From assembly GCA_002796135.1 (NCBI GenBank), contig PCWB01000004.1, forward strand, positions 1-33,183: DNA of 33,183 bases, written 5' to 3'. The stretch is from Candidatus Omnitrophica bacterium CG11_big_fil_rev_8_21_14_0_20_41_12. GTDB lineage: Bacteria; Omnitrophota; Gorgyraeia; Gygaellales; Profunditerraquicolaceae. The stretch's first letter is position 1, and every line of letters begins with the position of its first letter. The notes under the pieces are model-generated. The model did not search any database. It worked only from the letters and a program-made list of their open reading frames with translations, and had not been told where the DNA came from. Shown here in pieces: positions 2,352 through 30,477 of this stretch. Both the position numbers and the translations under genes were made by a program.

Positions 2352-2387
2352 AATAATTATAAATAAATTTTAAAGGAGGGAAGAAAG

Positions 2388-2729
2388 ATGAAGTTAATAA
2401 TCGCTATGATTCAACCGCATAAATTACCTGATGTAAAAAAAGCGTTATTTGAGGCAGAAGTCCATAAGATGACCGTTAGTAATGTTCTTGGCTGTGGCCA
2501 ACAGAAAGGGTATGCTGAAACTTACCGCGGAGTAATTCACCAGGCTAATCTCTTAAAAAAAGTAAGACTTGAAATTGCCGTTAATGATGATTTTGTTAAG
2601 CCAACCGTTGATGCAATTATTGAGGGAGCTAGAACCGGTAATATCGGAGATGGTAAGATATTAATACAGGATCTAAATGAATGTATACGTATTCGCACCC
2701 AAGAAAAGGGTCCGGTGGCGATCGGGTAA
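2388..2729 (+). CDS. glnK: PII nitrogen regulatory protein (GlnB/GlnK family)
   Basis: A 113-residue PII signal protein, the full family length, that senses 2-oxoglutarate and ATP/ADP and here most likely gates the adjacent Amt. Conserved ligand residues are visible: the T-loop base GCGQQKG with Gln39, Lys58 in LLKKV, the B-loop TGNIGDGK, and the C-terminal RIRTQEK. One oddity is that position 51, the tyrosine uridylylated in enterobacterial GlnB/GlnK, is histidine here (RGVIHQAN), and position 49, the serine phosphorylated in cyanobacteria, is valine. Modification at either known site is therefore unlikely. The start has a strong AAAGGAGGG. I prefer the name glnK because of the amt linkage; glnB would be equally defensible. 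Confidence 0.93.
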
Positions 2730-2730
2730 G

Positions 2731-2822
2731 AGAAAATTTAGATTACCAAAAACGCCAATTTTCTACTTGTAATAAGAGAACAGGGGCGTTCCGGTAGTTA
2801 AAGAATGCCTCTTTTATTTTTT
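2731..2822 (+). promoter_or_regulatory. Nitrogen leader 2, upstream of glnA
   Basis: Second leader copy. TTACCA (2743-2748) is again 15 bases from TACTTGTA (2764-2771). AGAAAATT (2731-2738) can pair with AATTTTCT (2757-2764) around the TTACCA, and the stem sequence differs from the other leaders while pairing is kept. Six bases after TACTTGTA comes the hairpin GAAC-AGGGGC-GTTC (2778-2791), with a six-base loop having A1, G4 and C6. Its 3' arm is part of the terminator stem, so they are alternatives. AACGCC (2751-2756) can also pair with GGCGTT (2785-2790) and block the terminator. The ATTGnA hairpin present in leaders 1 and 3 is absent here. Confidence 0.6.
2783..2822 (+). terminator. Intrinsic terminator in leader 2, between glnK and glnA
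   Basis: GGGGCGTTC pairs with GAATGCCTC (nine pairs, two of them G-U) around an 11-base loop and is followed by TTTTATTTTTT. It separates glnK from glnA, with the glnA start 54 bases downstream, so it can both end the amt-glnK message and attenuate glnA. Confidence 0.8.
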
Positions 2823-2876
2823 GGCGATTGTGGTAAGATAAGTCCAGTATTCCTATAAAATGCAAGGGGGGTATAA

Positions 2877-5072: not shown

Positions 5073-5201
5073 GGTTACCAGAGTAACCTTATATTTACTT
5101 GTATAGATAGGCACATTGTAGTGTCTAGATATTAACGAAAAGAACATAGACGTTCATGATGGCGGAAAACTGTTTTTTTGCCAAAGTGAACGTCTTTTTT
5201 T
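5066..5201 (+). promoter_or_regulatory. Nitrogen leader 3, upstream of the small regulator and gltBD
   Basis: Third leader copy. TTACCA (5075-5080) sits inside a near-perfect dyad, ATAAGGTTAC-CAGA-GTAACCTTAT, and is 15 bases from TACTTGTA (5096-5103). A seven-pair hairpin with loop ATTGTA follows (5108-5127: TAGGCAC and GTGTCTA). Next is GAAC-ATAGAC-GTTC (5142-5155), whose 3' arm doubles as the 5' arm of the terminator. Both loops are six bases with A1 and G4. The first dyad begins within the glnA stop codon. This copy carries every element seen in the other two and is the best model of the motif. Confidence 0.6.
5148..5201 (+). terminator. Intrinsic terminator in leader 3
   Basis: AGACGTTCA (5148-5156) pairs perfectly with TGAACGTCT (5187-5195), with an inner TGGC/GCCA helix in the loop, and runs into a seven-base T tract. 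It lies about 30 bases before the small regulator gene, so it would attenuate the regulator and gltBD. Confidence 0.88.
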
Positions 5202-5233
5202 ATCGGTTCGATTGATTAAAGTTTAGGCATAAA

Positions 5234-5616
5234 ATGATTACGATATTGATTACCGAGGATGAGTTAAAAGCTAAAGAGGCCCTGACTAAAATGTTAGAGC
5301 AAGAGGGGTATGCTTTATCCGCCGATGCCGAGCAGGGAAATGTGGTCCGGGTCGTAAAAAAAGATTGCATCAGGGATCTGGCTTTTATTAAAGATAAAGT
5401 TATCGAATTAGAAAATTCGTTGTTTACGGAAAAAAAGGTGTATTATATAAATCCGTTTTAGAGGCAATTGAGAAACCTTTGCTTGAACAGACTTTGGAGC
5501 GTTGCGAAGGTAATCAGCTTAAAGCTGCCAGAATATTGGGGATTAATCGCAATACCATGCGGGCAAAAATAAATAAATTAGGGATTGATGTATCAAGATG
5601 GAAGATAAATTTATGA
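5234..5616 (+). CDS. Small NtrC-like regulator, split by a -1 frameshift at A AAA AAG
   Basis: The ATG frame gives only 75 residues: a response-regulator-like start (MITILITEDE...LEQEGY) with no receiver core, then a charged helix. At 5431-5437 the in-frame heptamer A AAA AAG allows a -1 slip. The new frame then reads GVLYKSVLEAIEKPLLEQTLERC and a typical NtrC/Fis helix-turn-helix, GNQLKAARILGINRNTMRAKI, ending at 5616. The joined product would be about 127 residues. It has no AAA+ domain and only the first strand and helix of a receiver. The second-frame stop overlaps the gltB start by 19 bases, which suggests translational coupling and argues that the tail is translated. Alternatives are transcriptional slippage on the A7 run, a sequencing or assembly error, or a decaying pseudogene. 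Its place behind leader 3 and before gltB suggests a nitrogen-related DNA-binding role. Confidence 0.6.
5431..5437 (+). other. Candidate -1 ribosomal frameshift (slippery) site
   Basis: The heptamer A AAA AAG is in the correct phase of the 5234 ORF (codons GAA AAA AAG) and matches the dnaX-type slippery sequence. The zero frame stops 22 bases later, whereas the -1 frame continues for 59 codons encoding a recognisable helix-turn-helix. I see no obvious strong stimulatory stem just after it; the sequence downstream is AT-rich. Confidence 0.5.
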
Positions 5617-8600
5617 GCCAGGCGCATTTACCAAAAAAACAGGGTTTATACGACCCGCAGTTTGAACATGACGCCTGCGGGGTAGGATTTGTTTGCAATA
5701 TCAAAGGCAGGAAAAGTAATGATATTGTCAGGCAAGGTTTAGAGGTTCTAAGACGGCTAGCTCATCGTGGCGCAACCGGTTCAGACCCGAAAACCGGCGA
5801 TGGAGCGGGGATCCTTATTCAGTTCCCGCACGATTTTTTTGTTACTATCTGTAAAAAAGAAAAGATTAACCTGCCCCAGGAAGGCCAGTATGCCTCCGGG
5901 ATGGTATTTCTGCCTCAAGATGCCCAGGAGCGCCGGTTCTGCAAAGAAGCATTTGAAAAAATCATTAATAATGAATCCCAGATATTTCTAGGTTGGCGTA
6001 ACGTCCCTGTAAATAATCAGGATATCGGCCAAAGCGCCCGGGAGACCCAGCCTGAAGTTGAGCAGATCTTTATCGGCCGTAATAAAAAAATAAATGATGT
6101 TTTATCTTTTGAACGTAAACTTTATGTAATCCGCAAGCAGGTTGAAAATATTATCCGCGCCTCAATAATAAAACAAAAAACATTTTTTTATATTCCCAGT
6201 TTATCCAGCCGCACCTTTATTTATAAAGGCCTGCTCATGCCGCATCAGGTAGAGAATTTCTTTCTGGATTTAAATGCCAAAGAGATCAAAAGCGCTCTCG
6301 CCCTGGTGCATTCGCGTTACTCGACGAATACTTTTCCGACCTGGGATCTTTCTCAGCCGTTTAGATTTATCGCCCATAACGGAGAGATCAATACCTTAAG
6401 AGGCAATATTAACTGGATGCGCAGCCGCCAGAGCCTTCTGGAGAGTGAGCTCCTGGGCAAGGATTTAAAGAAGATTTTTCCGGTGATTGTTCCGGGGGGA
6501 AGCGATTCGGCAGTAATCGATAATGTTTTTGAACTTTTAATTTTATCCGGCCGTCCCCTGGCGCATGCAATTTCCATGCTCATCCCGGCGGCCTGGGAGC
6601 AGAATAAACTGCTGGCTCAAGGGGTCAGGGCTTTTCATCAATATCATGCCTGCCTTACTGAGCCTTGGGATGGGCCGGCGGCGGTTGCCTTTACCGACGG
6701 TGATTCGATCGGAGCAGTGCTTGACCGCAACGGATTGCGGCCGTGCCGTTATATTGTGACCAAAGATGATTTTGTAGTGATGGCTTCTGAGGTAGGGGTT
6801 TTGAATATTGATCCGGATAAGATTATCCACTCCGGACGGCTTGAACCGGGCAAGACTTTCTTTATCGATACCAAAGCCGGCTGCATCATTGAAGACAGCC
6901 AGATCAAAAAAGAACTGGCTCAGGCCAAGCCTTATGAACAATGGGTTAAGAAAAATATATTGAAGCTGGACAGCTTAAAAGATGAGGTTCCTAAAAAAGA
7001 CCAGACCGATACTTTAACGCAGCTAAAAGCTTTTGATTATACGCGGGAAGATTTGAAAACAATTATTAAGCCAATGGCCGAAGGCGCCCAGGAGCCGATA
7101 GGCTCGATGGGCAATGATACCCCGCATGCCGTACTTTCAGAGAAGCCGCAGCTTCTGTTCTCATATTTTAAGCAATTATTTGCCCAGGTAACTAATCCTC
7201 CGATTGACCCTATCCGGGAAGAGCTGGTGATGAGTTTAGCCAGCTATTTAGGACCGGAAAAGAATATCTTAAGCGACACAGAAGGCCACTGCCATAAATT
7301 GTTAGTTGCCCGCCCGGTGCTTAGCGATATTGAAATTGCGAAAATCCGTAAAATTAAAAAAAATGGTTTTAAAACTAAAACCATCTCGTTGCTTTTTAGG
7401 ACAGACGGAAAAATCGATTTTGCCAAAGAGCTTAAAAAAATATGCAGGGAAACGAAATCGGCAATTAAGGCAGGCTATATTTTTATTATTTTAAGCGACC
7501 GCGGAGTAGGAGAATACTGTGCCAGTATCCCCAGCCTTCTGGCGGTTTCCGCACTGCACCATTATTTGGTGCGGCGTTCTTTACGCACCCAGATCAGTAT
7601 TATTTTAGAGAGCGCAGAGCCGCGTGAGGTGAATCATTTTGCCTTGCTCTTTGCCTACGGAGTTGATTGTGTTAATCCGTATCTTGTTTTTAGGGCCCTG
7701 TTGAAAATGGTTAACGAAAAAGAACTTAACCTCGATATCGAAAAAGCCGGGCATAATTATATTAAAGCGGTAGATAAAGGGATCTTAAAGATCCTTTCTA
7801 AAATGGGTATTTCAACTTTACAGAGTTATCGCGGCGCGCAGATCTTTGAAGCAGTAGGATTGAATCAAAACCTCATCGAAGAATATTTTACCGGAACTTC
7901 TTCCAGGATCAGCGGGGCATCTCTGGGCGTAATTGCTAAAGAGGCGGTTATGCGCCATCAGGAGGCTTTTCCGTCGAGCCCGTTTCAAACAGATCATCTG
8001 GCTAGCGGGGGGGCCTATCAATGGAAGCGCGACGGAGAATTTCATCTCTGGAATCCGGAAAGTATCGCGGCTTTGCAGGATGCCGCGCGTAATAATGACG
8101 CCAAAAAATATCAGGAGTTTTCCGGTTTAATCAATGATCAATCAAAAAATCCGACTACCTTAAGAAGTTTATTAAAGTTTAAAATACAAAAGACTATTCC
8201 GTTAGGTGAAGTTGAGCCGGTTGAAGAGATTGTCAAAAGATTTGCCACCGGGGCAATGAGCTTCGGCTCGATCAGCCGCTCCACACATGAAACCATCGCT
8301 ATTGCGATGAATAGATTAAAGGGTAGGTCAAATACCGGAGAAGGGGGAGAGGACCCGGCGCGTTTTACTCCGCTAGCTAATGGTGATTCTGCCAGGAGCG
8401 CAATCAAACAGGTTGCCTCCGGAAGGTTCGGGGTAACCACAAATTATTTAATTAATGCCGATGAAATACAAATTAAAATGGCCCAAGGCGCAAAACCCGG
8501 AGAAGGAGGCCAGCTTCCCGGGCATAAGGTCAGTGCGATAATTGCTAAGACCCGTTATACTACGCCCGGGGTTACTTTGATTTCTCCTCCTCCGCACCAC

Positions 8601-10139
8601 GATATTTATTCCATTGAGGATTTAGCGCAGCTTATTTTTGATCTAAAAAATGTAAATCCTCAAGCGCGCATCAGCGTTAAGTTAGTTTCTGAAATCGGCG
8701 TAGGAACTGTTGCTGCCGGAGTGGCCAAGGGGCATGCGGATATGATCCTTATTTCAGGACAAGACGGCGGTACCGGAGCATCTCCTTTGAGTTCGATTAA
8801 ACACGCCGGGCTTCCCTGGGAGCTGGGGCTTTCCGAGACGCATCAGACTTTGGTCTTAAATGATTTAAGGAGCAGGGTACGCCTGCAAACCGACGGGCAA
8901 ATGCGCACCGGCCGCGATGTCGCCATTGCCGCTTTATTGGGAGCCGAAGAGTTTGGGTTTTGTACCGCGGTATTAATCGTCTTGGGATGCGTGATGCTGC
9001 GCCATTGTAATTTAAATAATTGTTCGGTAGGCATTGCCACCCAGGATGAAGTTTTAGAAAAAAGATTTACCGGGCGTCCCGAATATATATTAAATTATTT
9101 TACTTTTATTGCCAATGAGCTGCGCCAGATCATGAGTTCCCTGGGTATTAAAAAATTAGAAGAGATGGTCGGTAGAGTAGACCTTTTGGAATTAAATCAA
9201 GAAATTCTACCTTGGAAGGCAAAAGAAATTGATTTCTCCAGGATTCTTTATAGACCGCTTGTTCCGGAATCGGTAATTACGCATTATTGCCAAAAACAGG
9301 ACCACGGGATTGATAAAATCCTGGATTTAAAACTTATTGAGTTAGCTAAACCGGCATTGGATAAATCGCAGAATGTCCGGATTGATCTAGAGATTGAAAA
9401 TGTAAACCGGGCTACCGGAGCAATGTTAAGCGGGGAGCTCTGCAGGCGATTTGGCGAGAGTGGATTGCCGGAAGATACGGTTAGATGTAATTTTAAAGGG
9501 ATAGCCGGACAGAGTTTCGGAGCCTTTTTAGCCCAAGGGATAACTTTTACTCTTGAGGGCATGGCTAATGATTATGTGGGCAAAGGCATATCCGGAGGAA
9601 AAATCATAATTTACCCCGATCAGCAAGCCGACTATAGACCGGATGAAAATATTATTATCGGCAATACTACTTTTTACGGGGCAATTAACGGAGAGGCCTA
9701 TATCAGAGGGGTTGCCGGAGAAAGGTTCTGTATCCGGAATTCCGGGTTAGACGCGGTGATTGAAGGCTTAGGGGATCATGGGTGCGAATATATGACCGGC
9801 GGCAGGATTGTTGTTCTGGGAAAAACCGGCAGAAATTTCGGGGCAGGGATGTCCGGCGGGATTGCTTATTGCCTGGATGAAAATTCAGAATTTAAGAAAA
9901 AATGTAATTTGGAAATGGTGGCACTGGAAAAAATTGATGATGCTGACGCGCAGATAATTAAAAATCTGCTGTTTAATCATCATAAATATACGCAGAGCCC
10001 TAAAGCCAGAGAGACCCTTGCTGATTTTAATAAGTATGCCAAATTTTTTGTTAAAGTCATACCCTTGGAATACAAACGTATATTAGAGGAGACTAGGGCC
10101 TCCAAGAAAACGGATTTAGGAGAATATAGCGATGGGTGA
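5598..10139 (+). CDS. gltB: Glutamate synthase large subunit
   Basis: A 1513-residue enzyme that splits glutamine and transfers the ammonia to 2-oxoglutarate, making two glutamates. The order of domains is standard. First is a short propeptide, then the class II amidotransferase nucleophile Cys27 (FEHDACGVGF) with LAHRGATGSDPKTGDGAG. Next come the central domain and the FMN-binding synthase domain (GEGGEDPAR, GAKPGEGGQLPGHKV, SGQDGGTGASPL). The [3Fe-4S] cysteine cluster CVMLRHCNLNNC follows, and the C-terminal GXGXG beta-helix domain ends the protein. The length matches the bacterial alpha subunit. ATG 5598 is the longest start. ATG 5613, preceded by GGAAG, is a plausible alternative and only shortens the propeptide. 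The next gene encodes the NADPH-type small subunit and overlaps by eight bases, so this is a two-subunit enzyme. Confidence 0.97.
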   Translation: MEDKFMSQAHLPKKQGLYDPQFEHDACGVGFVCNIKGRKSNDIVRQGLEVLRRLAHRGATGSDPKTGDGAGILIQFPHDFFVTICKKEKINLPQEGQYASGMVFLPQDAQERRFCKEAFEKIINNESQIFLGWRNVPVNNQDIGQSARETQPEVEQIFIGRNKKINDVLSFERKLYVIRKQVENIIRASIIKQKTFFYIPSLSSRTFIYKGLLMPHQVENFFLDLNAKEIKSALALVHSRYSTNTFPTWDLSQPFRFIAHNGEINTLRGNINWMRSRQSLLESELLGKDLKKIFPVIVPGGSDSAVIDNVFELLILSGRPLAHAISMLIPAAWEQNKLLAQGVRAFHQYHACLTEPWDGPAAVAFTDGDSIGAVLDRNGLRPCRYIVTKDDFVVMASEVGVLNIDPDKIIHSGRLEPGKTFFIDTKAGCIIEDSQIKKELAQAKPYEQWVKKNILKLDSLKDEVPKKDQTDTLTQLKAFDYTREDLKTIIKPMAEGAQEPIGSMGNDTPHAVLSEKPQLLFSYFKQLFAQVTNPPIDPIREELVMSLASYLGPEKNILSDTEGHCHKLLVARPVLSDIEIAKIRKIKKNGFKTKTISLLFRTDGKIDFAKELKKICRETKSAIKAGYIFIILSDRGVGEYCASIPSLLAVSALHHYLVRRSLRTQISIILESAEPREVNHFALLFAYGVDCVNPYLVFRALLKMVNEKELNLDIEKAGHNYIKAVDKGILKILSKMGISTLQSYRGAQIFEAVGLNQNLIEEYFTGTSSRISGASLGVIAKEAVMRHQEAFPSSPFQTDHLASGGAYQWKRDGEFHLWNPESIAALQDAARNNDAKKYQEFSGLINDQSKNPTTLRSLLKFKIQKTIPLGEVEPVEEIVKRFATGAMSFGSISRSTHETIAIAMNRLKGRSNTGEGGEDPARFTPLANGDSARSAIKQVASGRFGVTTNYLINADEIQIKMAQGAKPGEGGQLPGHKVSAIIAKTRYTTPGVTLISPPPHHDIYSIEDLAQLIFDLKNVNPQARISVKLVSEIGVGTVAAGVAKGHADMILISGQDGGTGASPLSSIKHAGLPWELGLSETHQTLVLNDLRSRVRLQTDGQMRTGRDVAIAALLGAEEFGFCTAVLIVLGCVMLRHCNLNNCSVGIATQDEVLEKRFTGRPEYILNYFTFIANELRQIMSSLGIKKLEEMVGRVDLLELNQEILPWKAKEIDFSRILYRPLVPESVITHYCQKQDHGIDKILDLKLIELAKPALDKSQNVRIDLEIENVNRATGAMLSGELCRRFGESGLPEDTVRCNFKGIAGQSFGAFLAQGITFTLEGMANDYVGKGISGGKIIIYPDQQADYRPDENIIIGNTTFYGAINGEAYIRGVAGERFCIRNSGLDAVIEGLGDHGCEYMTGGRIVVLGKTGRNFGAGMSGGIAYCLDENSEFKKKCNLEMVALEKIDDADAQIIKNLLFNHHKYTQSPKARETLADFNKYAKFFVKVIPLEYKRILEETRASKKTDLGEYSDG

Positions 10140-12331: not shown

Positions 12332-12732
12332 GGAATCCTACCAGGAGGCAGAAACCATTCACCGATATAAATACTACTCCGTTTACCGATATTATCCTGG
12401 TGCTGATGACTATATTTATGGTTATGACACCTCTGGTTATGCAATCAAACATTCAGGTAAATTTACCCAGCTCAACAACCGGTGAGCCGAATAAAGAGGC
12501 CAAGCAGATCAACATTACGATTACCAACGAAGGATTGATTTATTTGGATAATAAGTTAACTTTAAAGAAGTTGCTCAAAGCAGAGGTGGCTAGGTTACAT
12601 CAGGCTAATCCCGGCCTAGAGGTTATTTTGCTTTCAGATAGAATGGTCAGGTTTAAAGACATTGTCGGCCTTCTGGACATCTTCAACGAATTGGGCATTA
12701 AAAATCTGAATATTGCCACCAAAACCGAATAA
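12328..12732 (+). CDS. exbD: ExbD/TolR-family biopolymer transport protein
   Basis: A 134-residue protein with the standard ExbD/TolR layout: a short cytoplasmic N-terminus, one membrane helix carrying the conserved aspartate (INTTPFTDIILVLMTIFMVM), and a periplasmic domain of about 90 residues ending in LLDIFNELGIKNLNIAT. The TTPFTD motif is the usual proton-conducting signature. It is translationally coupled to exbB through an ATGA overlap and is followed almost at once by apbE. The energised partner is not encoded in the window. Confidence 0.87.
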   Translation: MRNPTRRQKPFTDINTTPFTDIILVLMTIFMVMTPLVMQSNIQVNLPSSTTGEPNKEAKQINITITNEGLIYLDNKLTLKKLLKAEVARLHQANPGLEVILLSDRMVRFKDIVGLLDIFNELGIKNLNIATKTE

Positions 12733-12736
12733 ATCA

Positions 12737-13726
12737 ATGACAAAAAAAACTATTCAAATTTTCAGCGTGATAATTTTGGTTGGTCTGGGATTTTGGGGTA
12801 TCAAGCGGGCTAACTTAAGTATTCCCCCTGCCCGGACTGAAACCCGCCTGATGATGGGTACTTATGCTACGATTATTGCTTTAGGACCTAAGGAGATTAC
12901 CACTAAGGCAATGAATTTAGCCTTTATGCGGATGCAGGAAATAGATGTAAAATTCAATCCGATTAATCCCCAAAGTCCGGTTTATGCTTTTAATCGCAAT
13001 AATAAACCTATCTCTGACCCTGAGATTATTAGCCTGGTTAAGAGAGCTTTAGAAATTAGTAGGAAGTCTAACGGAGCTTTTGATATCACTGTGGCTCCAT
13101 TATTAGAGCTTTGGGGTTTTTATGTGAAAGCTTCTTCTGTTCCTAAGGATAAGGAGATTAAATCCTGCTTGCGTAATGTTGGTTATCGGCATCTTTTGTT
13201 TAAAGGCGGAAAGTTGAATAAAGATAACCCGAAAGTCAAAATTGATTTTGGCGGGATTGCTAAAGGTTATGCCTTAGCTGAGGCAGCCAGAGTTTTAAAA
13301 AATAACGGCGTAACTTCTGTCTTGATTGATTTGGGAGGAGATATTTATGTTTTAGGGAAATACGGAGCAAGGCCTTGGAAGGTCGGGATCAGAAATCCCA
13401 GAGGCACGGATATCTTGGGATATCTTGAGGCAAAAGATCAATCGGTATCCAGCTCAGGAGATTATGAAAGATTTTTTGTTGAAAAGGGAAAGCGCTACCA
13501 TCATATATTTAATCCGGTAACAGGATATCCTACAGAAGAAGTGGCTGAGGTAACGCTTATTCATCCTGATCCTGTTCTGGCGCAGGCTTGGGCAAAAATA
13601 CCTTTTGTGATGGGCTCACAAAAAGGGCTGCAGGCATTGGACAGGATCAAAGGGATGCAGGCGATTGTCGTGACTAGTGATGGGGAAATTTTATATTCTG
13701 AAAATAAATTAATAATTCATAAATAA
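12737..13726 (+). CDS. apbE: FAD:protein FMN transferase ApbE
   Basis: Transfers FMN from FAD onto a threonine or serine in D-x-x-(S/T)-G-A-(T/S) motifs of exported or membrane proteins. A single N-terminal hydrophobic segment (IFSVIILVGLGFWGI) without a lipobox cysteine suggests a membrane-anchored periplasmic enzyme, unlike many lipoprotein ApbEs. Family motifs are visible: TRLMMGTYATI, VDFGGIAKGYALAEAA-like KIDFGGIAKGYA, LIDLGGDIYVLG, SSSGDYERFF and HHIFNPVTGYP. I prefer ATG 12737 over the track's upstream TTG at 12713, which lies inside exbD; this gives 329 residues. The likely substrates are NqrB and NqrC encoded at 24613 and 25659, both of which carry a DAITGAT site. Confidence 0.94.
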   Translation: MTKKTIQIFSVIILVGLGFWGIKRANLSIPPARTETRLMMGTYATIIALGPKEITTKAMNLAFMRMQEIDVKFNPINPQSPVYAFNRNNKPISDPEIISLVKRALEISRKSNGAFDITVAPLLELWGFYVKASSVPKDKEIKSCLRNVGYRHLLFKGGKLNKDNPKVKIDFGGIAKGYALAEAARVLKNNGVTSVLIDLGGDIYVLGKYGARPWKVGIRNPRGTDILGYLEAKDQSVSSSGDYERFFVEKGKRYHHIFNPVTGYPTEEVAEVTLIHPDPVLAQAWAKIPFVMGSQKGLQALDRIKGMQAIVVTSDGEILYSENKLIIHK

Positions 13727-22426: not shown

Positions 22427-22444
22427 TTGTGAATAATTTCACTT
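22427..22444 (+). promoter_or_regulatory. Rex operator
   Basis: TTGTGAATAATTTCACTT matches the Rex consensus TTGTGAA-N4-TTCACAA at all but the last two bases. It overlaps the first bases of the -35 hexamer of the rex promoter, so bound Rex should block RNA polymerase. This predicts release, and expression of the rex-nqr genes, when NADH is high. Confidence 0.8.
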
Positions 22445-22470
22445 GACGCATGCCAAGGCTATTATATAAT
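22443..22470 (+). promoter_or_regulatory. Sigma-70-type promoter for rex-nqr
   Basis: TTGACG (22443-22448) and TATAAT (22465-22470) are 16 bases apart. The predicted transcription start is only about 3-5 bases before the rex ATG at 22481, and no ribosome binding site is visible, so the rex message may be leaderless or nearly so. Confidence 0.78.
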
Positions 22471-22480
22471 ATTAAAATTC

Positions 22481-23113
22481 ATGCACAAAGAAAAGATACC
22501 GAAATTAACTATTCCCCGACTTTCTCTTTATTATCGTGCGTTGCTGGAATCGCGGGAGAGCGCTTTTATTTCTTCTGAAGAGCTATCAAAGCTGACTCAA
22601 TTCTCAGCCGCCCAGGTTCGTAAGGATCTGACCTATTTCGGAGAATTCGGCACACCCGGTAAAGGTTACAGGATAGTTGAATTAAAAGAGGTAATTTTAA
22701 AGATACTCGGTACAGGCAGGCAGCGTAATATCGCCCTTATTGGCGCCGGTAATTTAGGGTTGGCATTGCTTGCCTATAGAGGCTTTGCTGTTCAGGGGTT
22801 TAGGATCGTTGCTGCATTTGACAGTAATTTAAGCAAGATCGGTAAGACCTTCGAAGGGGTACTTATTCGGGGGATGAACGAATTGCCGCAGGTGGTTAGA
22901 AATAAAAATATCGAAATAGCGATTATTGCTGTTCCGGCAAATGTAGCGCAAGAGGCGGTAAATAAGGTAATCAAAAGCGGGATCACGGCAATTTTAAATT
23001 TTGCGCCTATCCGACCTAAAGCTCCCAAGGGCGAAGAGATATTAAATATAGATTTATCCATCGAGTTAGAGCGGCTTTCTTATTTTTTAAAACGCAAGAG
23101 TAAAAAAGTATAA
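22481..23113 (+). CDS. rex: Redox-sensing transcriptional repressor Rex
   Basis: A 210-residue dimeric repressor that senses the NADH/NAD+ ratio. The N-terminal winged helix carries IPRLSLYYRALLES and the DNA-recognition part FSAAQVRKDLTYFGEFGTPGKGY. The C-terminal Rossmann fold has ALIGAGNLGLALLAYRGF. The length and both domains are typical. It is directly preceded by a matching Rex operator, so autoregulation is likely. It is followed three bases after its stop by nqrA-like and the other nqr genes. Rex would therefore tie expression of the NADH-oxidising ion pump to the redox state. Confidence 0.96.
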   Translation: MHKEKIPKLTIPRLSLYYRALLESRESAFISSEELSKLTQFSAAQVRKDLTYFGEFGTPGKGYRIVELKEVILKILGTGRQRNIALIGAGNLGLALLAYRGFAVQGFRIVAAFDSNLSKIGKTFEGVLIRGMNELPQVVRNKNIEIAIIAVPANVAQEAVNKVIKSGITAILNFAPIRPKAPKGEEILNIDLSIELERLSYFLKRKSKKV

Positions 23114-23116
23114 AAT

Positions 23117-24616
23117 ATGCTAAAACCATTCAGGACATTCAAAGGCGGATACAGATTTAAAAATTATGCCGGTCAGCCTGCTCCAGTGCTGATTGAGGCG
23201 GATATCCCCAAGCAGGTAGTTGTGCCTTTAAGGCAAGGATTTAGCAGCGAAGTAAAGGCGACGGTAAAGGCCGGAGATGCGGTTTTTGCCGGACAGATTA
23301 TCGGTAGAGACGATGAAAGTATATCCAGTCCGGTACATTCTCCGGTAAACGGCATCGTTGAAAACATAAAGCGGATGAATTATTTTAAGCGCGATATTAA
23401 TATGGTGCTCATCCGTACGACTAATTCTTCCCGTGAGATCACCAGGCTTCCCGGGTATGCCTCAGAATGGTGGAAGCTATCGAATGAAAAAATCGAAGAA
23501 TTAATTTATTTGTCCGGAGTCAGCTCTCTTGATCGGGAAGGTATCCCCACGCGCTTTAAAAGTTCGATTGTTCAACCGGCTGATGTTAACCATTTGATTA
23601 TCCACGGCGTAGGCTCAGAGCCGTATAATATTTCGCTAGATTTATTATTAGAAGGTAAAAATTTTCTGAATTTTTTCGAAGGCATAAAAATTTTAAAACG
23701 GTTGATGCCGAATTCAAAAGTACATTTGGCGTTAAATGCGCGTAAGCCAAAGTTAATTGAGCAATTTGTAAAATTGACTTCACAAATTGAGTGGTTGGAT
23801 ATCTATCCGCTTGAACCTAAATATCCGCAAGGTTATGATGAAATACTTGTGCCCACTATTTTACATCAGAAATTCCCCTATGGTTACTCTGCGGCTAATA
23901 TCGGTATAGTCGTATTGAATATCCAGGCAGTATTGGGTGTATATAAGGCGGTGGCTGAAGGATTACCTTTGATCGAACGTATTATTGCTTTCTGCGGCCC
24001 GGCAATGAAAGAAAATATACACCTGAAAGTACGTACCGGCACTCTCCTAGGAGATTTGTTTTATGGAAAGCTTAAAGGTGAACGGCCGCCGCGGGTGGTT
24101 TTAAATAGCCTGCTTACCGGTGTGTTGATGAATGATTTTTCTCTGCCGATTGACCGCTCCTTTACCCAGATTATCGCCATTGAAGAAAATAATAAAAGAG
24201 AATTTTTGTCTTTTATGCGCCCGGGATTAAGGCGCGATTCCTACACCCGCACTTTCTTAAGTAAACTATTTCCGAATATTAAAAAAATTGCCGATACTAA
24301 TCAGCATGGCGAAGAAAGGCCGTGCATTACCTGTAATTTTTGTGAAGAGATCTGTCCGGTAGGGATAATTCCGCATCTTTTAAGTAAATATGTCAAAAAA
24401 GGTTTTATTGATGAAACCATAATGAATTACGGTATTTTTAACTGTATCGAGTGCGGCCTGTGTAGTTTTGTCTGCCCTTCAAAAATACCTTTAGTTAAAT
24501 ATATGAAGGCAGGCCATGAAAAATTAATTATGCAAGGCTGCGATCAAGCGCAGTGCATACTGCCGTATTTTAATCTCAAAGGGTTAGAGGAATACCGCGG
24601 AGTAACCAAGCTATGA
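23117..24616 (+). CDS. NqrA/RnfC-like subunit with two [4Fe-4S] motifs
   Basis: A 499-residue membrane-associated subunit of an Nqr-type complex. The start (FKGGYRFKNYAGQPAPVL, then a barrel-sandwich with SSPVHSPVNGIVENI) blends NqrA and RnfC features. The middle (YPQGYDEILVPTILH, NIGIVVLNIQAVLGVYKAVAEGLPLIERI) is RnfC-like. However, the RnfC flavin/NADH loop GGAxFPT is replaced by SGVSSLDREGIPTRF. The segment VVLNSLLTG...EFLSFMRPGLRRDSYTRTFLSKLF follows NqrA. The C-terminus has two complete ferredoxin-type motifs, Cys403/406/409/413 and Cys443/446/449/453, as in RnfC. True NqrA keeps only a vestige of the second. It overlaps nqrB by four bases. I leave the symbol blank because neither nqrA nor rnfC is fully right. 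Confidence 0.85.
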   Translation: MLKPFRTFKGGYRFKNYAGQPAPVLIEADIPKQVVVPLRQGFSSEVKATVKAGDAVFAGQIIGRDDESISSPVHSPVNGIVENIKRMNYFKRDINMVLIRTTNSSREITRLPGYASEWWKLSNEKIEELIYLSGVSSLDREGIPTRFKSSIVQPADVNHLIIHGVGSEPYNISLDLLLEGKNFLNFFEGIKILKRLMPNSKVHLALNARKPKLIEQFVKLTSQIEWLDIYPLEPKYPQGYDEILVPTILHQKFPYGYSAANIGIVVLNIQAVLGVYKAVAEGLPLIERIIAFCGPAMKENIHLKVRTGTLLGDLFYGKLKGERPPRVVLNSLLTGVLMNDFSLPIDRSFTQIIAIEENNKREFLSFMRPGLRRDSYTRTFLSKLFPNIKKIADTNQHGEERPCITCNFCEEICPVGIIPHLLSKYVKKGFIDETIMNYGIFNCIECGLCSFVCPSKIPLVKYMKAGHEKLIMQGCDQAQCILPYFNLKGLEEYRGVTKL

Positions 24617-25656
24617 AACTCATCAAAGATGTATTAGGGAATCTTAACGGCGTAATTCAAAAGAATAAATTTTTAGCGAAATTCAAGCCGGTGCTCAATG
24701 CCATGGATGAATTTTTCTTCGGCACTAGTAGGGTAACTTCGCTACCTTATATACTTGATTACATAGATATTAAGCGTTTTATGTCATTTGTGGTTATCGC
24801 CCTTATTCCGGCGACGCTGGCGGCAATATATTTCTGGGGTTTGCATATCCTGGCGATGATTATTGTTTCCTATGCGTTTGGTGGGATGGTGGAGGTTGCT
24901 TTTGCCATAACACGTAAAAAAGAGATTCACGAAGGGTTTTTAGTCACCGGGTTAATCTTTCCCCTGATTCTTCCTCCGGCAACTCCGTTGTGGGTGGTTG
25001 CGGTGGGAGTAGTATTCGGTGTTTTATTCGGTAAAGAGGTTTTCGGAGGTACCGGTAGGAATATTTTTAACCCGGCAATCGTCGGCAGGGTATTTTTGAC
25101 GATCGCTTTTCCTAAGATAATGACCTTAAACTGGCCTCTGCCTTCTATAGGCGTGGGAGCAGATGCTATTACCGGCGCTACTCCTCTGGCGCTTTTTAAA
25201 AGCCAAAGCATAGTAAATTCTTACAGCAATCTTCTTTTTGGTTTCTGCAGCGGCTCTGCCGGGGAGACCTTCCGTATCGGGCTGATTGCCGGAGGCATCT
25301 TTCTTATTTTAACCAGGATAATTGATTGGCGCATACCCTTGGCAGCCCTATCAACCATTTTTGTTTTTCCTCATTTAAGCAACCATTTTTTTCACACTAC
25401 GTTTGCCCCGGGATTATTTCAAATCCTTAGCGGTGGGGTATTGCTGGGTGCATTTTTTATGGCAACAGACCCGGTAACCGCGCCTTTTACGAAATCCGGC
25501 AGATGGATCGGCGGGATATTCTTGGGTGTTTTGACTGTTTTAATCCGCGGTCTCTCAGGATACGTGGAGGGATTGGTGTTTAGCATACTTTTGTTGAATG
25601 CCTGCACTCCCTTAATTGATACCCTGGTATTAAAGGTAAGGTATAGAAGAAAATAA
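24613..25656 (+). CDS. nqrB: Na+-NQR subunit B-like membrane protein
   Basis: A 347-residue integral membrane subunit with about ten helices, part of the ion-translocating core. The N-terminal extension (FLAKFKPVLNAMDEFFFG, then DYIDIKRFMSFVVI) resembles NqrB and not the shorter RnfD start. The covalent FMN site DAITGATPLAL is present, with Thr190 the expected attachment residue. GRNIFNPAIVGRVFL and GAFFMATDPVTAPFTKSGRWIGG are conserved in both families. The FMN would be added by ApbE at 12737. It starts in an ATGA overlap with the preceding gene, and nqrC follows two bases after its stop. Confidence 0.92.
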   Translation: MKLIKDVLGNLNGVIQKNKFLAKFKPVLNAMDEFFFGTSRVTSLPYILDYIDIKRFMSFVVIALIPATLAAIYFWGLHILAMIIVSYAFGGMVEVAFAITRKKEIHEGFLVTGLIFPLILPPATPLWVVAVGVVFGVLFGKEVFGGTGRNIFNPAIVGRVFLTIAFPKIMTLNWPLPSIGVGADAITGATPLALFKSQSIVNSYSNLLFGFCSGSAGETFRIGLIAGGIFLILTRIIDWRIPLAALSTIFVFPHLSNHFFHTTFAPGLFQILSGGVLLGAFFMATDPVTAPFTKSGRWIGGIFLGVLTVLIRGLSGYVEGLVFSILLLNACTPLIDTLVLKVRYRRK

Positions 25657-26234: not shown

Positions 26235-26867
26235 ATGCCGAAGAAACAGCTGAAAAGAAGTTTCAAACAGACTAAATGGTTTAAGGTTTTTTCCGCCGGG
26301 CTTTGGCAGGATCATCCGACATTCTGCATGGCTTTAGGTATCTGCTCAATGCTGGCGATTACCAATCGTGTTGATAATGCTATTGCCATGGGTTTGGGCG
26401 TAACTTTTTGTATTGCGTTTAGTTCATTGTTTGTTTCAATTTTCCGTAACATTATACCCAGTCGGGTAAGGATGCTTGCCTATATGGTAATCATTTCAAC
26501 TTTTGTTATTTGTATTGACCGTTTTCTAAAGGCGTATTTTCCGCCGATCAGCGAATCTATGGGGCCCTACGTTGGATTGATTATTACTAATTGTATTCTG
26601 ATGGGCAGGGCAGAAGCGTTTGCGATGAAAAACAGGCCCTGGATGTCGTTTCTTGACGGTGTGGGTTGCGGTTTAGGATATAGTTTTATGTTGCTTTTGA
26701 TGGCTTTAGTTCGTGAGCCATTAGGCTTTGGGACTCTCTTGGGCTTTAAAGTAACCCCGGATTCCTGGGTAAAATGGTCGGTAATGACCATTGCTCCCGG
26801 AGCATTCTTTTTATTAGGTATCTATTTGTGGATTTTTAGGACACTGGCTAAAAAAACGGAGGTTTAA
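26235..26867 (+). CDS. nqrD: Na+-NQR subunit D
   Basis: A 210-residue, six-helix membrane subunit. The sequence follows NqrD closely: GLWQDHPTFCMALGICSMLAITN, LFVSIFRNIIPSRVR, VGLIITNCILMGRAEAFAMKN, and the end MTIAPGAFFLLGIYLWIFRT. Conserved cysteines lie in GICSML and TNCILMG, the positions that bind the iron-sulfur centre between NqrD and NqrE in the solved complexes. It is homologous to RnfE, but the MTIAPGAFF tail is NqrD-like. It is tightly packed between nqrC and nqrE. Confidence 0.94.
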   Translation: MPKKQLKRSFKQTKWFKVFSAGLWQDHPTFCMALGICSMLAITNRVDNAIAMGLGVTFCIAFSSLFVSIFRNIIPSRVRMLAYMVIISTFVICIDRFLKAYFPPISESMGPYVGLIITNCILMGRAEAFAMKNRPWMSFLDGVGCGLGYSFMLLLMALVREPLGFGTLLGFKVTPDSWVKWSVMTIAPGAFFLLGIYLWIFRTLAKKTEV

Positions 26868-26870
26868 AAT

Positions 26871-27479
26871 ATGGGACCGGTTATTTCTAATCCAACTGAC
26901 CCTTTAACGCTTTTCGCGGCTTCGATATTTACGCACAATATCGCCCTGGTTTATATTTTAGGTATGTGCCCGTTTATTGTTATTTCCAGAAATTTTAAGA
27001 CTGCTGTGGGCATGGGGCTTTCGGTGGTTTTTGTGGTTACGTTGACTGCCTTGATCAATTGGCCGATATACTGGTATATCCTGGTCCCGGCACACGCAGA
27101 GATACTTTCATTTCTGGTTTTTATTGTAGTTATTGCGGCCACAGTTCAGCTATTGGAGATGCTTATTGAAAAATTTTTTCCGGCGCTTCAGGCTTCATTC
27201 GGAATATTCTTGCCGTTGATTACGGTTAACTGCCTTGTTCTGGCGGTTTGTCTTTTTATGGTTTTAAGAAATTATAATTTTATTCAAACTGCTTTCTATT
27301 CTTTGGGCACAGGCGTGGGCTGGGCGTTAGCCATTATTATTATGGCCGCGATCAAGGAAAAGCTTGCCCTAATCGCGGATATTCCCAGCGGCTTAAAAGG
27401 CGCCGGGATTACGATGATTATTATCGGCCTAATGGCATTTGCGTTTATGGGTTTTGCCGGAATGATTACTTTACAATAA
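26871..27479 (+). CDS. nqrE: Na+-NQR subunit E
   Basis: A 202-residue, six-helix membrane subunit that pairs with NqrD in opposite topology. It matches NqrE in SIFTHNIALVYILGMCPF, EMLIEKFFPALQASFGIFLPLITVNC, YSLGTGVGWALAIIIMAAIKEK and the end MAFAFMGFAGM. The conserved cysteines in LGMCPF and TVNCLV are candidate ligands for the intramembrane iron-sulfur centre. The homologue in Rnf is RnfA. The start has GGAGGT just upstream, and nqrF begins one base after the stop. Confidence 0.94.
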   Translation: MGPVISNPTDPLTLFAASIFTHNIALVYILGMCPFIVISRNFKTAVGMGLSVVFVVTLTALINWPIYWYILVPAHAEILSFLVFIVVIAATVQLLEMLIEKFFPALQASFGIFLPLITVNCLVLAVCLFMVLRNYNFIQTAFYSLGTGVGWALAIIIMAAIKEKLALIADIPSGLKGAGITMIIIGLMAFAFMGFAGMITLQ

Positions 27480-27480
27480 A

Positions 27481-28557
27481 ATGATGACACCTATTTTGAT
27501 TATGAATTTGATTTTGCTGGTTATCGCTATACTTCTGGTGATTGCCGAGAAGCTGTTGGTTACTTATGGCGAATGCAAGATCATTATCAATAAGGAGAAA
27601 ATTCTTACTGTCCAGGGCGGTTATTCCCTGTTGAATTATTTTGCAGAAAACAAAATCTTTATTCCTTCTGCCTGTGGAGGTAAAGCTACCTGCGGCTATT
27701 GTAAGGTTGAGGTTTTAAGTGGCGCAGGGCATATCCTGCCGACCGAAGAGGTATTTATCGGCCCACAGGAGCGCTCTAAAGGTGTACGGCTTGCCTGCCA
27801 GGTTAAGGTAAAGAATGATATTGAGGTTTTGATCTCACCTGATCTTTTACACGCGCGGGAATATAAGGTAACGGTTTTGGATATTAAGGATTTAACGCAT
27901 GATATTAAGCAGGTGATTTTGAAGCTTGATCGGCCAACTTCAATCAAATTTAAAGCCGGCCAATATGTGCAGTTTAAGATACCGGAGACTGACGAATTCC
28001 GCGCCTATTCTATTGCTTCGGTACCATCGCAAAATGATAGGTTAGAGTTGCTTGTGCGGTTTGTGCCGTCGGGATTATGCTCGACGTATATCCATGAAGT
28101 GCTGGATATCAATGATAAGATTGTGGTCACCGGACCGTTTGGGGATTTTTATTTAAGAGAGGAGTTAACGCGTGATATTATCTGTATCGGCGGAGGCTGC
28201 GGTATGGCGCCGATACGGTCGATTTTATTAGATTTAGCAGAAAAGAATATGCCGCGCAAAGTAATGTATTTTTTCGGAGCGCGTAGCAAAAAAGATCTAT
28301 TTTTCACGGAGTTTCTTTTAGATCTGCAGGATAAATATCCGAACTTCAAATATATTCCCGTGCTCTCTGAGCCCAAACCGCAGGATAATTGGGAAGGGGA
28401 AACTGGTTTTGTTACGCAGGCGGTTGAGAAGTACGTCCTCGAAGGCCCCGGCGCAGAAGCATATCTTTGCGGCCCACCGCCGATGATCAATGCTTCCGTT
28501 AAAGTGCTCACCAAAAAAGGCATCAAAGAAATACATATTTATTATGACAAATTCTAA
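27481..28557 (+). CDS. nqrF: Na+-NQR subunit F, NADH dehydrogenase component
   Basis: A 358-residue electron-input subunit. One N-terminal membrane helix (LIMNLILLVIAILLVIAEKLL) is followed by a [2Fe-2S] ferredoxin domain with Cys65, Cys71, Cys74 and Cys106 (ACGGKATCGYC and LACQV). A ferredoxin-reductase domain follows, with the FAD motif RAYSIAS and the NADH motif IGGGCGMAPIRSI, and the end AYLCGPPPMINASV. It is about 50 residues shorter than Vibrio NqrF. Rnf complexes have RnfB and no NqrF, so this gene assigns the cluster to the Nqr side and indicates NADH as the donor. Its end overlaps the next gene by 14 bases. Confidence 0.95.
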   Translation: MMTPILIMNLILLVIAILLVIAEKLLVTYGECKIIINKEKILTVQGGYSLLNYFAENKIFIPSACGGKATCGYCKVEVLSGAGHILPTEEVFIGPQERSKGVRLACQVKVKNDIEVLISPDLLHAREYKVTVLDIKDLTHDIKQVILKLDRPTSIKFKAGQYVQFKIPETDEFRAYSIASVPSQNDRLELLVRFVPSGLCSTYIHEVLDINDKIVVTGPFGDFYLREELTRDIICIGGGCGMAPIRSILLDLAEKNMPRKVMYFFGARSKKDLFFTEFLLDLQDKYPNFKYIPVLSEPKPQDNWEGETGFVTQAVEKYVLEGPGAEAYLCGPPPMINASVKVLTKKGIKEIHIYYDKF

Positions 28558-29488
28558 TTTTTCGGCAAATAGGATATTGATCTGGCTGAAGGCGATGCGG
28601 CTGCCGTTTTTAACGGCAACCATTGTGCCGGTTAGCTTTGGCTCGATAATTGCTTGGCATAACACCGGGGAATTTATCTGGCTGAGATTCTGGTTGGTAT
28701 TATTCGGCGCATCATTTATTCATATCGGTACAAATTTAGCCAATGATTATTTTGATCATCTTAGCGGCGCAGATATTGCCAATGACCATCCTACGTCTTT
28801 TAGCGGAGGCAGCAGGATAATCCAGGACGGGCTTATCGAACCTAAGAAAATTTTATGCGTATCTCTCTCGGCATTTATTCTGGGCAGCTTAATCGGTTTT
28901 TTCCTTAACTATCTTTGCGGCCAAAATGTAATTTTAATCTTAGGCATCATCGGGGTATTTTTAGGATTTTTTTATAGTGCGCGGCCCTTTTTTATCGGCT
29001 ACCGGAGTTTTGGAGAATTAGCCGTGGGGGCAGGTTTCGGGCCTTTGATGGTTATGGGCGCATATTTTGTGCAGGCACAAAGCTTGCCTTTTAGTGTATT
29101 TTTAATTTCGGTTCCGGTGGGTATTTTAGTTGCCTTGATTGTGTTGATCAATGAATTTCCGGATTATGCGGCGGATAAAAGCGTAGAAAAAAATACACTG
29201 GTAGTTGTTTTAGGCCAAAAAAAGGCGGTAACGATATACCATGTTTTTTTAGGGCTGACATATTTATATGTGGCGTTTCTGGTAATATTCGGAATCATGC
29301 CTTTATTTTCTCTGATTGTATTTTTCAGCATTCCCTTGGCCTTCAAGGCTTTTAGAGTATCGAAAAATAATTTTGAATGCATCGAAGGATTATTGCCGGC
29401 AAATGCGGCCACAATCGGGCTGCATTCTACTTTCGGATTATTTTTGTGTGTTGCGTATGTATTAGACAGAGTTTTAATTAAGCTATGA
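28544..29488 (+). CDS. menA: UbiA-family prenyltransferase, probable MenA
   Basis: A polytopic inner-membrane enzyme of about 314 residues that most likely attaches a polyprenyl chain to 1,4-dihydroxy-2-naphthoate in menaquinone synthesis. The first aspartate motif is GTNLANDYFDHLSGAD and the second region is VLINEFPDYAADKSVEKNTLVV, the pattern seen in MenA-like members of UbiA. ATG 28544, within the end of nqrF, gives MTNSNFSANRILIWLKAMRLPF, a normal UbiA start; the track's 28490 start adds an out-of-frame stretch of nqrF. It overlaps the polyprenyl synthase gene by four bases, an obvious functional pairing. A different aromatic acceptor cannot be excluded. Confidence 0.83.
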   Translation: MTNSNFSANRILIWLKAMRLPFLTATIVPVSFGSIIAWHNTGEFIWLRFWLVLFGASFIHIGTNLANDYFDHLSGADIANDHPTSFSGGSRIIQDGLIEPKKILCVSLSAFILGSLIGFFLNYLCGQNVILILGIIGVFLGFFYSARPFFIGYRSFGELAVGAGFGPLMVMGAYFVQAQSLPFSVFLISVPVGILVALIVLINEFPDYAADKSVEKNTLVVVLGQKKAVTIYHVFLGLTYLYVAFLVIFGIMPLFSLIVFFSIPLAFKAFRVSKNNFECIEGLLPANAATIGLHSTFGLFLCVAYVLDRVLIKL

Positions 29489-30477
29489 ATTTAAAGCATA
29501 TCTACAGTCCGATCGCCAAAGATTTGTTCAAAGTGGACAGTCTTTTAAATGAGAGTCTTAAAAAAACCAGATATGCAGCTATCCTTGAGTTAAATAATTA
29601 TCTTTTGGAATCAAAGGGGAAAGGGATCAGGCCGGCCTTGGTGATTATTTCTGCTAAGGCTTGCGCCAGGACTTCTTCAGCGGTTACTTCTGCGCTGACT
29701 AAGATTGCCTCAGCCATAGAATTAATCCACGTGGCTTCGTTAGTTCATGATGATATTATTGATGCTTCAGCTTTGAGGCATCACAAGCCGACTTTTAACG
29801 TAAAATTCGGCGAAGATGTTTCTATTGCTTTTGGAGATTATCTTTACGCGATTGCTTTTGAATTAATTGCTTCCTGTAAGAATACCGATATTTTATCTTG
29901 TATAGCTCAGGCCAGCCGCGCTCTTTGTGAAGGAGAACTTATTCAGGTTTGTGAAAGAGACAACCTGTCTTTATTGAAAGAACGTTATCTGCTGATTGTA
30001 AAGAAAAAAACCGCAAGTCTTTTTGCTGCTTCTTGTCAGGCCGGGGCCATACTTTCACAGAGCCGTCAACTAACACAAGATTCGCTTAAAGAATATGGGT
30101 TAAATTTAGGTGTAGCTTTTCAGATCATTGACGACTGCCGTGATTTGACCGGCAGCAAAGAAAAATTAGGTAAGCGCCCGGGTTTAGATTTTAAAATGGG
30201 GGAGCTGACCTTACCGGTATTGAATTTAATTTTTCAGGAGCCTCAAGAAAAAAAGAATATCATTGAATTACTTCGAAATCAGGATGATGAAAAGGCATTT
30301 CGTAGTTTAAGCTTTAAGTTCCTTAATTCATCTGCTTTTGAGAAAACCAAGCAGGAAGCCTTTGCATATATTCAAAAGGCCAAAAGCTCTTTGGGTCATT
30401 TAAAAGATTCCTCTTACCGGAGAAGTTTATCTGCTTTGGCGGATTATGTTGCCGATAAGATAGAATCCGATGTCTAG
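29485..30477 (+). CDS. Trans long-chain polyprenyl diphosphate synthase
   Basis: A 330-residue soluble enzyme that extends allylic diphosphates with isopentenyl diphosphate to make the quinone side chain. The first aspartate-rich motif is LVHDDIIDASALRHHKPTFN (DDxxD) and the second is FQIIDDCRDLTGSKEKLGKRPG. KGKGIRPALVIISAK and GELIQV are further family landmarks. Small residues before the first DDxxD (HVASLVHDD) suggest a product longer than C20, such as hepta- or octaprenyl diphosphate, but exact length cannot be read. It couples to menA by ATGA and to hemL by TAGTG. Confidence 0.92.
   Translation: MNLKHIYSPIAKDLFKVDSLLNESLKKTRYAAILELNNYLLESKGKGIRPALVIISAKACARTSSAVTSALTKIASAIELIHVASLVHDDIIDASALRHHKPTFNVKFGEDVSIAFGDYLYAIAFELIASCKNTDILSCIAQASRALCEGELIQVCERDNLSLLKERYLLIVKKKTASLFAASCQAGAILSQSRQLTQDSLKEYGLNLGVAFQIIDDCRDLTGSKEKLGKRPGLDFKMGELTLPVLNLIFQEPQEKKNIIELLRNQDDEKAFRSLSFKFLNSSAFEKTKQEAFAYIQKAKSSLGHLKDSSYRRSLSALADYVADKIESDV

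Follow-up and report, generated by a model that had tools for sequence, protein, structure and literature searches.

The operon described here would encode an Nqr-type, ion-pumping NADH:quinone oxidoreductase of a lineage that diverged before the clusters disappeared from canonical Nqr, a reading to which we give a probability of about 0.7. It lies in the genome of Candidatus Omnitrophica bacterium CG11_big_fil_rev_8_21_14_0_20_41_12, within the 33,183-nucleotide stretch of contig PCWB01000004.1 that was analysed as a whole (the window). Rnf is an ancient ferredoxin:NAD+ pump, and many pathogens rely on Nqr as their main NADH pump; to our knowledge, the transition from Rnf to Nqr has so far been a model without known intermediates.

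Gene content of the operon

The operon consists of the following genes:

23117–24616, + strand: A subunit of the NqrA lineage, both [4Fe-4S] motifs retained, FMN/NAD loops gone
24613–25656, + strand: nqrB, covalent-FMN/riboflavin subunit with an NqrB-type N-terminus and quinone-pocket residues
25659–26231, + strand: nqrC/rnfG-type FMN subunit with a TGAT flavinylation motif (PF04205 and sequence)
26235–26867, + strand: nqrD, with its pair of membrane [2Fe-2S] cysteines (GICS, TNCI; TIGR01939, 233 bits against a cut-off of 245)
26871–27479, + strand: nqrE, with the two partner cysteines (GMCP, VNCL; TIGR01940, 204 bits against a cut-off of 248)
27481–28557, + strand: nqrF, with membrane helix, [2Fe-2S], FAD and NADH domains (TIGR01941 above cut-off, and tree)

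The A gene, an NqrA/RnfC homologue of 499 aa with an ATG start, begins 3 bp past rex and shares 4 bases with nqrB. The five genes after it have their best or near-best NCBIfam scores with NqrB/RnfD, NqrC/RnfG, NqrD, NqrE and NqrF, in agreement with the original prediction, made from the sequence alone, that they are NqrB to NqrF including an NADH-oxidising NqrF; the latter passes its TIGR01941 cut-off narrowly (296.1 against 295 bits). No rnfB is present in the operon, and the gene content is almost certainly that of an nqrABCDEF-type operon with NqrF and without RnfB, as judged by these profiles. A complete rnfC-G-D-E-A-B operon is found on contig C10 of the same genome, its RnfC having the GGA loop and its RnfB several ferredoxin motifs. 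The window operon is therefore a separate complex, and not the organism's Rnf minus one gene.

Relatives of the hybrid operon

Hybrid A subunits, like that of the window, were detected in 21 of 384 Omnitrophota genomes (364–954 bits with the A1 profile; one is split in two). Canonical NqrA scored over its cut-off in 24 of the 384, and both types occur together in none of the genomes listed; 19 of the 21 hybrid genomes contain a further, RnfC-like match. The close relatives are Omnitrophota MAGs with 63–75% identity, along with two Planctomycetota at ~29%, and the Planctomycetota contain further hybrids as well as a group with an A subunit of ~340 aa. Every relative locus with sufficient contig has the order A-B-C-D-E-F and no adjoining rnfB, so that the combination looked for in relatives, a cluster-bearing A with NqrF and without RnfB, is borne out. 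A scan of viral contigs gave no relatives of hybrid A.

The short-A version occurs at eight Planctomycetota loci (L126–L133; genomes G538, G602, G553, G624, G434, G455, G685 and G707). It differs from the window operon in its ~340-aa A subunit, which lacks the N-terminal barrel and has an incomplete NqrA-type insert, in having D and E as one fused ORF and in an NqrF of ~545 aa, and it forms a long clade of its own. Given the D–E fusion and an HZS-alpha domain (PF18582) in 6 of the 8 genomes, a domain that is non-specific as an anammox marker, with many matches in other Planctomycetota, the short-A form is probably the published anammox Na-NQR. The operon of Jettenia resembles it in comprising a cluster-bearing A, B, C, D-E and F, and the short form was named NqrA–F there (PMC6828613).

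Several loci show other arrangements. In the Omnitrophota hybrid operon at L115 (G182:C1:28000-39400), nqrF (4021–4974, − strand) keeps the membrane helix and [2Fe-2S] domain and has a NuoE-type thioredoxin-like [2Fe-2S] domain (PF01257) in place of the FAD/NADH domain; downstream lies a NuoF/HydB-type flavoprotein (1533–3344, − strand; PF01512, PF10589, two Fer4). By its predicted domains, this Nqr pump has an input module of the complex-I/bifurcating-hydrogenase kind. Plasmid pILYOP01 of the cultured organism Ilyobacter polytropus (L160) carries a B-C-D-E-F cluster (5171–9026, + strand), with an NqrF 44% identical to those of hybrids and a B subunit without the N-terminal quinone segment. 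It has no A gene upstream, nor any other ORF of at least 100 aa in the upstream 5 kb. Downstream of the hybrid nqr genes in L006 (14916–16136) and L009 (12991–14181), a heptaprenyl-synthase-I/Gx-transporter-like domain is fused to CbiQ, with apbE nearby in L009 (15544–16581); the fusion may export flavin for use by ApbE.

Iron–sulfur motifs of the A subunit

The relevant parts of the A gene are:

23507–23566, + strand (A residues 131–150): site of the RnfC GGAxFPT FMN loop, now SLDREGIPT (64-protein alignment)
24200–24304, + strand (residues 362–396): NqrA-type insert, missing in RnfC (alignment)
24323–24358, + strand (residues 403–414): first [4Fe-4S] motif, CITCNFCEEICP (Cys 403, 406, 409, 413)
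24443–24478, + strand (residues 443–454): second [4Fe-4S] motif, CIECGLCSFVCP (Cys 443, 446, 449, 453)
24539–24613, + strand (residues 475–499): C-terminal tail, CDxxQCILPYF(N/D)LKGxEEYRG (alignment)

The A subunit narrowly passes the cut-off of the RnfC subfamily TIGR01945 (252 against 246 bits) and falls far below that of the NqrA equivalog TIGR01936 (140 against 321 bits), and is thus intermediate by profile model too; TIGR01936 scores are 108–154 bits across all hybrids with a listed match. Its Pfam domains are RnfC_N, Complex1_51K and Fer4_7. Among solved chains RnfC is nearest and NqrA second, the NqrA alignment running end to end with the insert included.

An alignment of 64 A-type proteins was made (20 Omnitrophota hybrids, 9 Planctomycetota hybrids, 8 short forms, 14 RnfC and 13 canonical NqrA). 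The eight cysteines of the two CxxCxxCxxxCP motifs are all present in 20/20 Omnitrophota hybrids, 8/9 Planctomycetota hybrids, 8/8 short forms and 14/14 RnfC, and in 0/13 canonical NqrA. As the ninth Planctomycetota protein is truncated by a contig end, the two intact motifs first noticed in the window are kept in 36/36 full-length hybrids. Pairwise identity among hybrid A proteins is as low as 17%, which argues for a strong constraint on the cysteines rather than chance. In canonical NqrA, cysteines are kept at the equivalents of 443, 449 and 453 in 6/13, 9/13 and 9/13 proteins, and none is kept in the first motif; such partial retention is what decay would predict, and it upholds the suggestion that the C-terminus of NqrA is a decayed second motif.

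All 14 RnfC have the FMN-loop GGA, which none of the 37 hybrids or 13 canonical NqrA has, so the loop had rightly been called lost, and the RnfC ECEPY loop reads GSEPY in the window protein. The central segment EFLSFMRPGLRRDSYTRTFLSKLF, described beforehand as NqrA-like, aligns to the same stretch of the 13 canonical NqrA and is absent from the 14 RnfC. The 34-residue insert is filled in hybrids and NqrA, has a median of 4 residues in RnfC and is half filled in the short form. The cluster geometry assumed below rests on homology, since the AlphaFold model of A was poor (mean pLDDT 48.8 with an 11-row alignment).

The clusters might be purely structural, steadying the C-terminal domain on NqrB, protein packing having replaced them in canonical NqrA. 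Canonical Nqr does function without clusters, the catalytic FMN/NAD site of the hybrid A is lost, and NqrA is considered structural (PMC12174285); but both full motifs are strictly conserved across this range of identity, and they are kept even in the anammox-like form, which lacks the whole N-terminal barrel. We consider a purely structural role rather unlikely, and predict, with somewhat better than even confidence, that the A clusters are redox-active.

The C-terminal tail, in full CDxxQCILPYF(N/D)LKGxEEYRGVTKL, is nearly invariant only in most Omnitrophota hybrids. It contains two extra cysteines and is missing from the Planctomycetota forms.

Phylogeny and order of events

A core tree was built from concatenated B, C, D and E (53 taxa, 957 columns, LG+C20) and rooted with RNF as outgroup; the RNF and NQR reference sets comprised 13–14 rows each, containing no Chlamydiae or Verrucomicrobia. 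RNF is separated from the rest with 100/100 support, and canonical NQR is monophyletic (100/100). Its sister group consists of the Planctomycetota hybrids L013, L014 and L119 (100/99), followed by L121 with L123 (100/99), while the Omnitrophota hybrids (95/97) and the short form are deeper branches. At the split from RNF, the B, C, D and E subunits of the window go with NQR, outside the canonical NQR clade, and on the unrooted tree the hybrids sit between RNF and canonical NQR whatever the root. Forcing all hybrids into one clade gave a tree 59 log units worse, which was rejected (AU p = 2e-4); one hybrid clade without the short form was 82 log units worse (AU p = 5.6e-10), and after removal of short-A and long-branch rows p was 0.012. 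A tree of NqrB only agrees, with weaker support. According to these trees, the cluster-bearing operons very probably form a paraphyletic grade within which canonical Nqr arose. The hybrids are modern enzymes on this branch, not the ancestor itself.

In the tree of A subunits, the hybrids group with NqrA and not with RnfC (100/100), although support among the hybrids is weak and long branches come together. This tree bears on a further explanation, that a canonical nqr operon had its nqrA secondarily swapped for rnfC. Such a chimera would account for an A subunit above the RnfC cut-off and well under that of NqrA; it is at odds with the grouping of A with NqrA, with the presence of the NqrA insert and with B, C, D and E also branching outside canonical NQR, and we regard it as extremely improbable. 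Replacement of NqrA by RnfC is ruled out by the A tree and the core tree together, unless the trees are artefactual. What had been named in advance as telling against the original prediction, a place deep within RnfC with a full rnfB in the operons of relatives, or poor alignment with NqrA, was not observed, although an ordinary Rnf with rnfB does exist on another contig.

Hybrid and canonical NqrF form one clade against monooxygenase reductases (100/99), with L121, whose clusters are present, as sister to canonical NqrF (100/99); the order of the hybrid groups is not settled by support, and L123 and L118 are unstable. Since NqrF forms one clade in which the cluster-bearing L121 and canonical NqrF are sisters, the trees place NqrF recruitment and disappearance of the A flavin site first, and a single loss of the [4Fe-4S] clusters later, on the branch leading to canonical Nqr. 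In the published scenario, decay of RnfC precedes recruitment of NqrF (PMC4014512), and the order suggested by our trees contradicts it. The proposal that the operon is a step from Rnf to Nqr therefore stands as to its intermediate position, but has to be amended in two respects: the family spans two phyla rather than a single operon, and the sequence of events is not that of the published model.

Quinone pocket and quinone genes

Residues of the NqrB quinone pocket were compared in V. cholerae numbering, the positions being taken from published structures. K54, G140 and E157 are all present in 31/31 hybrids (17/17, 6/6 and 8/8 by hybrid group) and in 13/13 canonical NqrB, and F159 in 20/31 hybrids, whereas in RnfD position 140 is A or C, position 157 is not E and position 159 is A. 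The N-terminal segment of NqrB that closes the pocket is found in hybrids and not in typical RnfD. The NqrB of the short anammox-like form is without F159 and G141, and its quinone pocket may differ from that of the other hybrids.

Two predicted genes for quinone synthesis follow nqrF:

28490–29488, + strand: menA-like prenyltransferase, a listed ORF overlapping the end of nqrF (TIGR00751 above cut-off)
29485–30477, + strand: polyprenyl diphosphate synthase, for the quinone side chain (profile match)

An ortholog of this menA (at least 40% identity) is present in 14 of 21 hybrid genomes compared to 0 of 39 other genomes (Fisher p = 7e-9). Yet neither MqnA/D of the futalosine pathway (PF02621) nor MenD (TIGR00173) scored over cut-off in the organism's own genome (G000) or in most hybrid genomes; the quinone head group may be made by some other route or supplied by neighbours.

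These data bear on whether the complex is instead a divergent Rnf, not using quinone, in which an NqrF-like reductase independently took the place of RnfB. The short NqrC and NqrB, near the lengths of RnfG and RnfD, and the failure to detect a head-group pathway in the genome are in line with that idea. Against it stand the single NqrF clade, the pocket residues of NqrB, the distribution of menA and the loss of the NAD/FMN site, which leaves no NAD+ reduction, and we hold it to be very unlikely.

Putative regulation and neighbouring genes

Features upstream of the operon are:

12713–13726, + strand: apbE, flavin transferase (PF02424, 276 bits)
22427–22442, + strand: putative Rex-operator-like site TTGTGAATAATTTCAC, abutting the −35 box (exact consensus match)
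22443–22470, + strand: promoter-like TTGACG-16-TATAAT 5' of rex (best of scan, 11/12 consensus positions)
22481–23113, + strand: rex, NADH/NAD+-sensing repressor, 3 bp ahead of the A gene (NF003995/NF003993 above cut-off)

A search for the perfect, AT-cored Rex palindrome gave no match; the looser half-site pattern TTGTGAANNNNTTCAC matched exactly at TTGTGAATAATTTCAC, with 0 matches in 100 shuffles. The putative operator and predicted promoter are consistent with control by the NADH/NAD+ ratio. A rex gene also precedes the hybrid operon of L011.

Upstream of the operon are tetrapyrrole/heme genes in addition to apbE, whose product is expected to attach FMN to NqrB and NqrC. The genes after nqrF are the menA-like gene, the polyprenyl synthase, hemL and two cytochromes. 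These multiheme cytochromes, of NapC/NirT and c554 type, lie at the contig end (31775–33114) and are likely a route of quinol oxidation.

Comparison with Nqr and Rnf

The hybrid complex resembles Na+-NQR of the Vibrio cholerae type in gene order, NqrF, the N-terminal segment and pocket residues of NqrB and the NqrA insert. It differs in retaining two [4Fe-4S] motifs in A and in that B, C and F are without the canonical insertions (medians of 356/191/357 versus 399/253/409 aa). With Rnf (RnfCDGEAB) it shares both RnfC cluster motifs, B and C lengths near those of RnfD and RnfG and a homologous core; in contrast to Rnf, hybrids have NqrF in place of RnfB, have lost the GGA FMN and ECEPY loops, possess an NqrB-type N-terminus and have A and core subunits outside the RNF clade. 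The NQR/RNF-like partial systems reported earlier also mix NqrB/RnfD and NqrF domains, but are one-way NqrB–NqrF fusions, while the window operon is a full six-subunit set (PMC8238504).

Proposed electron path

In Nqr, electrons pass from NADH through FAD and the [2Fe-2S] cluster of NqrF, the [2Fe-2S] cluster of NqrD/E, FMN of NqrC, FMN of NqrB and riboflavin to quinone. Riboflavin is 11.6 Å from ubiquinone in Nqr (PMC10643135) and 11.7 Å from the RnfC-2 cluster in Rnf (PMC9588780). In the window operon the NADH, FAD and [2Fe-2S] domains of NqrF, the membrane [2Fe-2S] cysteines of D/E and the flavinylation motifs of B and C are present by sequence. It carries sequence features of both exits, but FMN and NAD+ are no longer the end point of the Rnf exit. 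The window complex is, with good probability, predicted to be an NADH:quinone pump: electrons would run from NADH via FAD, [2Fe-2S], the D/E cluster, FMN of C and FMN of B to riboflavin of B, and on to quinone at B as the main acceptor, with Na+ or H+ being pumped. The A clusters, ~12 Å from the same riboflavin by homology, would provide a second one-electron branch. We favour for them the role of a side relay, which would hold or exchange an electron while quinone takes two singly, rather than NAD+ reduction.

The clusters might instead form a true second exit or entry for a soluble partner such as ferredoxin, in a branched NADH/quinone/ferredoxin machine. Conservation of both clusters in 36/36, and not just of the riboflavin-proximal one, is as a surface wire needs; the FMN that ends the RnfC wire is gone, and Rnf, with ferredoxin, is present in 19/21 hybrid genomes. 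However, the operons read contain no gene for ferredoxin or another partner, the RnfB-type docking domain is absent and the separate Rnf already gives a ferredoxin route, which makes this exit distinctly unlikely. Put more broadly, it is a speculative and doubtful idea that riboflavin has two live exits, the quinone of NqrB and the [4Fe-4S] wire of NqrA, so that the pump would branch or buffer electron flow between quinone and a soluble carrier of the cytoplasm, which neither Rnf nor Nqr does; Nqr would then have originated in anaerobic PVC-type bacteria or their kin, and not in Bacteroidota/Chlorobi.

Discussion

Searches of the open-access literature turned up no earlier account of an NqrA with clusters, only 'NQR' and 'Rnf' annotations. 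Papers on Omnitrophota name Rnf and Nqr without remark on the A subunit, and a survey of flavinylated systems makes no mention of a cluster-bearing NqrA. From its genes, a step between Rnf and Nqr that was formerly only proposed seems to survive today in uncultured Omnitrophota. The hybrid operons form a graded series, from which the order of events can be read on trees, and the published origin of Nqr in Chlorobi/Bacteroidetes needs to be rechecked with hybrids included. Should the anammox NQR belong to this series, as its sequence suggests, electron transfer by the clusters could be tested directly in organisms amenable to bulk enrichment, and such tests would also bear on the unexplained function of NqrA.
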